Shown: one piece after another, positions 25,221 through 26,402 of the stretch
How positions within the stretch are numbered: the first letter of the stretch is position 1
Layout: each line of letters begins with the position of its first letter
Assembly (NCBI GenBank): GCA_018897295.1
Contig: JAHILA010000006.1
Span: 1 to 36,080, forward strand
DNA: 36,080 nt
Source: Patescibacteria group bacterium
Lineage (GTDB): Bacteria > Patescibacteriota > Minisyncoccia > RBG-13-40-8-A
Direction of reading: 5' to 3'
Notes under the pieces: model-generated
What the model saw: the letters and a program-made list of their open reading frames with translations, nothing else
The model's database searches: none
Told to the model about the DNA's origin: nothing
Program-made: the position numbers and the translations under genes

Positions 25221-25631
25221 ATGAAACAGAACCAAAACAAGAAACCCGCCGCAAGCCCTGCAAGCAGGCGGGCCCGCCTAAATGCGCAAAGCGCTTTTGG
25301 CGGGAAATTATTGCCTATTATAACAATTTGTATTATGGCCTTGATAGCCGGTTCCTTGGTTGTCAATGCTGTGGTTATTGAAAATCCATTGAAATATGAT
25401 GATATCGGAAAGATAATAAGTGCTATAGGAGGTTTATTAAAGGTTCTGGCTATTGGTATAGGAACAATTATGATTATAATTGCTGGAATTCAGTATATGA
25501 CTTCAGCCGGAAATGAAGAAAGAGCGGCAAAAGCCAAAAAAACCATTCTTTACACGCTTATTGGCGTAGCAATTGTAGTGGCAGTAGATTTTATTATTGG
25601 ACTTATTGGAGAAATTGTAGGGAAAAAATAA
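25221..25631 (+). CDS. T4SS pilin-like protein, paralogue 1, with repeat insertion
   Basis: 136 aa. Its core matches the other two: a first hydrophobic helix (about 30-50), then ISAIGGLLKVLAIGIGTIMIIIAGIQYMTSAGNEERAAKAKKTILYTLIGVAIVVAVDFIIGLI. This is the TrbC/VirB2-like T4SS_pilin pattern of CPR genomes (helix, GGIQYMTSAG..E...KAKK loop, helix). Residues 9-28 are encoded by a 60-nt palindromic insertion between the basic start MKQNQNKK and the hydrophobic KLLPIITI. Without it the N-terminus would be an ordinary signal peptide cut near VNA. Confidence 0.85.
   Translation: MKQNQNKKPAASPASRRARLNAQSAFGGKLLPIITICIMALIAGSLVVNAVVIENPLKYDDIGKIISAIGGLLKVLAIGIGTIMIIIAGIQYMTSAGNEERAAKAKKTILYTLIGVAIVVAVDFIIGLIGEIVGKK
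25245..25304 (+). repeat. 60-nt double palindrome inserted in frame in pilin 1
   Basis: Two G+C-rich hairpins lie side by side: CCCGCC/GGCGGG at 25245-25272, and CCCGCC..AAA.GCGC/GCGC.TTT..GGCGGG at 25273-25304. The whole is exactly 60 nt (20 codons), so the frame is kept. Its base composition contrasts sharply with the flanking A+T-rich DNA. Confidence 0.85.
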
Positions 25632-25656: not shown

Positions 25657-26004
25657 ATGAAATATTTAATTCCGGTTCTTGCAACAATTTTTGTGCTTTT
25701 TCCCGTAATCGCCCATGCTAGCATAATTCTTATCAGATGTGGTAGCTTGCCAGAATATACCTCAAAATTATGCTATTTATTGGAGGATATCCAAAAAATA
25801 TTATACGGACTTTCTTTGGGAATAGCGGTAATCGTTATTATTGTCGGAGGTGTTACTTATATGACGGCTGGCAATGATGAAGAGAAGACAAAAAGAGCAA
25901 AAAAGATTATAACTAATGGTGTTATCGGTTTTGCTATAGTATTAGCCTTTTCTTTTATCTTGGGGATGGTGATGGAAATAATAGAAAATAGTCTTGGCGT
26001 ATAA
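25657..26004 (+). CDS. T4SS pilin-like protein, paralogue 2
   Basis: 115 aa from ATG 25657 (an in-frame TTG at 25648 is less likely). A signal peptide is followed by likely cleavage at AHA. Two cysteines (RCGSLPEYTSKLCYL) may form a disulfide. The second part is IQKILYGLSLGIAVIVIIVGGVTYMTAGNDEEKTKRAKKIITNGVIGFAIVLAFSFILGMV, the VirB2-like two-helix pattern. Such pilins may build a conjugative or DNA-uptake pilus; no T4SS ATPase or channel gene is present. Confidence 0.85.
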   Translation: MKYLIPVLATIFVLFPVIAHASIILIRCGSLPEYTSKLCYLLEDIQKILYGLSLGIAVIVIIVGGVTYMTAGNDEEKTKRAKKIITNGVIGFAIVLAFSFILGMVMEIIENSLGV

Positions 26005-26045: not shown

Positions 26046-26402
26046 ATGAAAAAACTTTTACCAGTTGTCCTATTGTCTTTAATGGTTTTACCATTATTTG
26101 CCAGCGCTGCGGCTGTAAATCCAGAGATTGCTATCTGTAATATTTTGAACAAAATTAAGGTTGTCATTGCGGCATTGGGTTTTGGTTTAGCGGTGATTTT
26201 CCTGATTATAGGCGGTATTCAATATATGACTGCAGGAGGTGATGATGAAAAAGCAAGCAAAGCGAAAAAATTGATTATCAATGCTATAATTGGCATTGCC
26301 ATAATTTTTGCTGCGACCTTTATACTTAGTTTGGTTGAAGGATTATTGATTGGTGGTGGTATTACACCTAATCCTTTTGGCAATCCTTGCGGCAGTTATT
26401 AA
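26046..26402 (+). CDS. T4SS pilin-like protein, paralogue 3
   Basis: 118 aa. Signal peptide MKKLLPVVLLSLMVLPLFASAAA with a clear ASA cleavage site. After it comes ICNILNKIKVVIAALGFGLAVIFLIIGGIQYMTAGGDDEKASKAKKLIINAIIGIAIIFAATFILSLV, closely parallel to the two upstream genes. The C-terminus is Gly/Pro-rich and has a second Cys (NPFGNPCGSY) that may pair with Cys near 36. It is the last gene before a hairpin at 26439-26463. Confidence 0.87.
   Translation: MKKLLPVVLLSLMVLPLFASAAAVNPEIAICNILNKIKVVIAALGFGLAVIFLIIGGIQYMTAGGDDEKASKAKKLIINAIIGIAIIFAATFILSLVEGLLIGGGITPNPFGNPCGSY

Follow-up and report, generated by a model that had tools for sequence, protein, structure and literature searches.

Short palindromic elements that are inserted in frame in many unrelated, often essential genes of small-genome bacteria, and that also occur outside genes, have been described from Rickettsia (RPE) and Wolbachia (WPE) (PMC10969869). 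RPEs are ~150 bp long (PMC10969869) and carry the end tag CGTC (PMC3733652). REPs and REPINs consist of palindromes of 20–40 nt that are often paired and in some cases lie inside genes; REPs have a GTAG end and are linked to RAYT genes (PMC3733652). In-frame palindromic insertions have so far been regarded as a peculiarity of Rickettsia and a small number of REP-rich bacteria. Here, we describe a comparable insertion in a pilin gene of a Patescibacteria group bacterium, located in a window of 36,080 nucleotides.

The pilin 1 gene is an open reading frame of 136 aa at 25221–25631 on the forward strand. It encodes a T4SS pilin, with the Pfam domain PF18895 (T4SS_pilin) at residues 60–129 and a score of 46.3 bits against a curated cut-off of 26.6. 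Codons 9–28, PAASPASRRARLNAQSAFGG, are made up by a double-hairpin palindromic element of 60 nt at 25245–25304 (forward strand), hereafter family A, which scores 72.6 bits with the covariance model. Hairpin 1 occupies 25245–25272 (CCCGCCGCAAGCCCTGCAAGCAGGCGGG, which reads CCCGCCGCAAGC-CCT-GCAAGCAGGCGGG) and hairpin 2 occupies 25273–25304 (CCCGCCTAAATGCGCAAAGCGCTTTTGGCGGG, which reads CCCGCCTAAATGCGC-AAA-GCGCTTTTGGCGGG), both on the forward strand. The element is flanked by AAA at 25242–25244 and again by AAA at 25305–25307 of the same strand. It sits between MKQNQNKK and the hydrophobic stretch KLLPIITICIMALIAG, in phase with the 136-codon reading frame, and is rich in G+C in a window of 37% G+C. 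The DNA of the insert folds at -22.9 kcal/mol, compared to -15.0 ± 2.3 kcal/mol for dinucleotide shuffles (z -3.5), and an equally good fold was reached by just one of 200 such shuffles. The paralogues downstream, pilin 2 (25657–26004, forward strand) and pilin 3 (26046–26402, forward strand), have ordinary N-termini without insert. A preliminary description of this locus, as two adjacent G+C-rich hairpins forming exactly 20 in-frame codons next to two paralogues with ordinary N-termini, is thereby confirmed in its coordinates.

Just 3' of the insert lies a TTG at 25311, preceded by GGCGGG, a candidate internal start that could skip the insert. Elsewhere in the window there are two terminator-like repeats of 37 nt, at 635–671 and 2671–2707, which are 95% identical. 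A repeat finder detected no second copy of the insert within the window alone.

Genome-wide, the insert is one of many. The preliminary description had proposed to look for the same palindromes inside and between genes, and dispersed copies were indeed found in both settings: a BLAST search of the region against the whole 611-kb genome, after which each site was read, yielded 13 family-A copies. The pattern CCCGCCN{10,30}GGCGGG occurs at 26 sites in the genome, versus none for the reversed control pattern. Elements of family A are 56–64 nt long and consist of CCCGCCGCAAGC-loop-GCAAGCAGGCGGG, with the second hairpin next to it in 10 copies. Hairpin 1 is the unit most conserved among copies, and stands alone at the end of RpoB, in S9 and at one intergenic site. 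Nine of the 13 copies lie in or at the ends of reading frames. Besides pilin 1 (codons 9–28), these are the N-termini of L23 and S9, the tail of S6, the last codons of RpoB, two small ORFs (one before rpoB, the other for a basic protein on contig 5), and the middle of YchF (in a variable region) and of SecA, where the frames are uninterrupted and conserved protein is found on both sides of the insert. Two copies are intergenic, one between rpoA and rplQ and one after a glycosyltransferase gene, and the remaining two lie in 5' remnants of tRNA genes (tRNA-His and tRNA-Arg). With its copies in genes for ribosomal proteins, secretion and polymerase as well as in tRNA fragments, the insert is very probably a selfish repeat that spreads.

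Palindromes belonging to other sequence families were also seen in frame, in SecA (L034/L080), trigger factor (L028) and two glycosyltransferases (L030, L033). In SecA, an older palindrome holds a second one in its loop.

One might object that the insert is an ordinary terminator or intergenic repeat misread as coding sequence, with the start codon set too far upstream. Such hairpins often are terminators, and an internal TTG exists. However, the frame of pilin 1 is open from its ATG at 25221 onwards, no T-run follows the hairpins, and the mid-gene copies in YchF and SecA lie in open frames of otherwise conserved proteins, which makes a misreading hardly credible. A Rho-independent terminator as such is ruled out, as the insert is followed by AAATTATTGCC inside the ORF, with neither a T-run nor a gene end.

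Pilin relatives are present in nearly all genomes searched. In the alignment of pilin 1 orthologues that the preliminary description had recommended, the syntenic orthologues of four genomes of the same family (G001, G002, G004 and G005) lack the insert and have ordinary signal peptides, starting with MKKALFFI, MNKFLIFL, MKKYLPLL and MEKTLFFV, respectively. Since these orthologues are insert-free, they do not carry a similar extension encoded by unrelated DNA, which that description had named as evidence against an insertion. Their identity to pilin 1 is only 45–56%, and hence the ancestral site can be given at the DNA level only as a reconstruction, with AAGAAA-AAATTATTG as the putative exact empty site. 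Pilin 1 has ~6 further residues (QNQNKK) that are absent from the orthologues. Therefore, the 20 palindrome codons explain part of its N-terminal extension, and not the whole of it.

The pilin domain is not affected by the insert, which brings three Arg but no acidic residues into the cytoplasmic n-region. For this reason, and because the sequence is tolerated in many proteins and absent from orthologues, a near-neutral effect on the pilin seems more likely than the altered export that the preliminary description had named as a possibility. Alternatively, the insert might be functional and selected, either because an extended basic n-region tunes export or membrane insertion of the pilin, or because the hairpins regulate translation of the pilin operon. 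The Arg residues are added beside the hydrophobic core, the ORF runs into strong hairpins 24 nt after its start, and the TTG with GGCGGG in front of it could in principle act as an internal start 3' of the insert. Yet, the element recurs in many proteins that are unrelated to one another and in intergenic DNA, and the orthologues manage without it, so that we consider selection for such a function very unlikely.

The repeat appears to have been inserted at different times. In alignments with the same-family genomes G001–G004, the family-A peptides of S9, L23, S6, SecA and YchF were absent wherever the gene was found. In G005, the S9 and S6 inserts and the first SecA palindrome are present in an eroded state, whereas its pilin 1 is empty, and therefore insertion has been ongoing over time. 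The S6 tail of G006, a genome of another family in the same order, also bears the element. This makes inheritance with loss, or repeated insertion, possible, and some copies (S6 in G006; S9 and S6 in G005) could have spread by inheritance or gene conversion instead of new insertion. The family-A covariance model matched 16 of the 238 genomes of the class; at a stricter cut-off, in a sample drawn from the phylum, it matched 5 of 287 genomes including the source genome. Of 188 class genomes, 163 contain the broader CCCGCC..GGCGGG pattern. The 40 nearest genomes together hold 234 pattern sites versus 47 control sites, and the source genome ranks among the richest.

Comparison of nine full-length copies revealed two-sided, pairing-preserving changes in 7 of the 20 pairs, a number reached by none of 500 shuffles and far above that of slid pairings. 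Hence, pairing is kept by compensatory changes between copies. All copies share a common orientation, along the transcription of the host or neighbouring gene (13/13; two-sided p 0.0002, with copies taken as independent). Open frames are about equally frequent in the forward and reverse direction, and therefore stop codons are no explanation of this bias. An A precedes every copy (13/13; p ~2e-6, again with copies taken as independent), and the base after a full-length copy is a purine, mostly as part of RA, so that the ends of family-A copies read A-CCCGCC and GGG-R, where the hyphen marks the junction.

At tRNA remnants, the insertion is demonstrably exact, because an intact tRNA adjoins each remnant, which thereby acts as a fossil empty site. 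The tRNA-His remnant, GGTTA-element-AAG, rejoins exactly to the sequence of the adjacent intact tRNA, GGTTAAAG, and the tRNA-Arg remnant, GGATA-element-GAG, rejoins exactly to the adjacent GGATAGAG. In these two cases, the flanking A is part of the target and not of the element. The same holds more widely for exactness: 13 of the 13 tRNA-remnant junctions compared (two of family A and 11 of other palindromes), which were picked by eye and then checked by script and hence represent clear cases and no random sample, rejoin exactly, and neither target duplication nor deletion was detected at these 13 junctions.

Possibly, family A is a REP/REPIN-type repeat mobilised by RAYT, a Y1 HUH transposase, by strand-specific insertion of hairpins without target duplication. 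The lack of target duplication, the hairpins, the single orientation and the fixed 5' base would all fit single-strand transposition by a Y1 enzyme, as generally known for IS200/IS605 and as described in PMC6006769, and the genome does contain a RAYT-like gene, its sole Y1 transposase gene. However, the palindrome at the flanks of this gene is a different one, GTAGGACAT..ATGTCCTAC, with three copies that occur only there. Furthermore, GTAG is missing from the family-A ends, and the number of Y1 genes does not track the number of palindromes; G012, for instance, has 23 palindromes and no Y1 match. We therefore regard mobilisation by RAYT as somewhat unlikely. The RAYT-like gene (L067, C18:53052–53817) bears one of its three identical palindromes in frame inside the gene. 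With this other palindrome at the flanks of the gene at C18, RAYT is unsupported as the owner of family A.

In the source genome and its relatives, tRNA remnants are linked to small GIY-YIG ORFs. An intact tRNA comes directly after 14 of the 74 small GIY-YIG ORFs, compared to 4 of the 366 other ORFs of the stretches concerned (Fisher p 8e-9, although the true significance is weaker because the genomes are related). The tRNA-linked GIY-YIG ORFs are preceded by a 5' fragment of that tRNA, ~20–55 nt long, and nearly all of these remnants are broken by one to three palindromes; at L126 and L130, divergence of the remnant precludes a significant alignment. GIY-YIG genes between a palindrome-broken tRNA remnant and an intact tRNA are located at C9:148–590 (L002; the small GIY-YIG protein of this tRNA-His unit is encoded at C9:232–489) and C2:6500–6870 (L023), with further loci at L126 (C9), L139, L159, L171, L176, L177, L179, L183, L185, L195 and L197. 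The tRNA kinds involved are His, Gln, Tyr, Arg, Asp, Leu, Val, Ser, Cys, Met and Gly, and the public record JAKAHA010000005.1 shows the same arrangement at tRNA-Gly. At L156, L141 and L197, a G+C-rich hairpin takes the place of the anticodon arm, and the tRNA sequence resumes 3' of the hairpin. The tRNA-Leu(CAA) unit occurs in three genomes (L159, L176, L177) with a similar TTTAG(T/C)CGCC.. palindrome in the same place, which suggests that the whole unit may have been inherited or transferred together. The GIY-YIG gene and the tRNA remnant would form a putative mobile unit, which would draw on the promoter of the tRNA and leave a restored tRNA behind.

Several observations would be compatible with palindromes that travel with these GIY-YIG units or are generated by them, if the nuclease cuts the loops of tRNA genes or hairpins, and palindromes are captured at the breaks and then seeded elsewhere. 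The association of the GIY-YIG ORFs with tRNAs and the palindromes in nearly all remnants point in this direction, as does one family-A copy (C9) that lies within a GIY-YIG/tRNA unit. The number of GIY-YIG genes is also weakly correlated with the raw number of palindromes (rho 0.34, p 0.03), but the correlation is no longer significant after subtraction of the control pattern (rho 0.19, p 0.24), and G009 and G003 have palindromes without a GIY-YIG match. Moreover, the remnants may be mere neutral landing sites, or palindromes may be selected there because they break a direct repeat. Such capture at nuclease breaks therefore seems quite unlikely to us. A bolder proposal, which we also judge unlikely, is that Patescibacteria harbour a two-part selfish system. 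In this system, tRNA-homing GIY-YIG units would duplicate the 5' part of a tRNA, use its promoter and restore the tRNA, while hairpin elements would enter loops by exact insertion (the D and anticodon loops of tRNAs, and the loops of earlier palindromes), and from there would land in frame in essential proteins, including the pilin.

In the explanation that we favour, the insert in pilin 1 very probably belongs to a dispersed family of short palindromic elements that are non-autonomous and enter A-rich sequence of the sense strand precisely, with no duplication of the target site. Copies would land just 3' of an A, and those in protein genes would survive if they are divisible by three in length and if ~20 hydrophilic residues can be accommodated at the site. 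Tolerant sites may include the n-region of the pilin signal peptide, the tails of ribosomal proteins, a variable region of YchF and the last codons of RpoB. New copies would arise by transposition-like copying via a single-stranded hairpin intermediate, with a putative mobilising enzyme acting in trans. Neither the number of Y1 genes nor that of GIY-YIG genes clearly explains the number of palindromes.

An Rfam scan returned no match except tRNA. Compared to known elements, family A resembles MITEs in being short, non-autonomous and dispersed. MITEs, however, normally have terminal inverted repeats and target duplications, whereas insertion of family A is exact. Mitochondrial double-hairpin elements and G+C clusters consist of two G+C-rich hairpins inserted in A+T-rich genomes. 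Family A shares this double G+C-rich form, in a comparison by description only, but the mitochondrial elements belong to organelles. Free-standing GIY-YIG homing endonucleases, for example those of phage T4, provide a precedent for a small GIY-YIG enzyme linked to a tRNA region. In contrast to the T4 type, the gene here lies between a duplicated tRNA 5' remnant and an intact tRNA, in cellular genomes, as judged from sequence alone.

The traits expected from IS200/IS605-type transposition (no target duplication, hairpins, strand bias and a fixed 5' flank) are seen in the sequences of family A, for which this mechanism is a candidate. REPs and REPINs likewise are short palindromes that are often paired, but family A lacks the GTAG end and is mostly intragenic (9/13) instead of extragenic, and the RAYT of the genome has a palindrome of its own.

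The closest likeness is with RPEs. The preliminary description had drawn this comparison. It holds for behaviour, given the in-frame insertion of short palindromes in genes of unrelated function, whereas membership is not supported. Family A is shorter than the published RPE length (56–64 nt), consists of two adjacent hairpins, does not end in CGTC, and occurs in Patescibacteria-like genomes, in another phylum, where it is also found in tRNA remnants. Hence, family A appears to work like an RPE, while the published length and end tag of RPEs set it apart. In a literature search in which most subscription papers were beyond reach, palindromes in genes of Patescibacteria or Parcubacteria and GIY-YIG genes at tRNAs were undescribed. 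As far as this search extends, selfish in-frame palindromes of the kind known from Rickettsia would be new for this large group. Copies in essential genes of streamlined Patescibacteria-like genomes indicate that such elements thrive in minimal genomes too, and the tRNA remnants, as fossil empty sites, bear directly on how such palindromes move.
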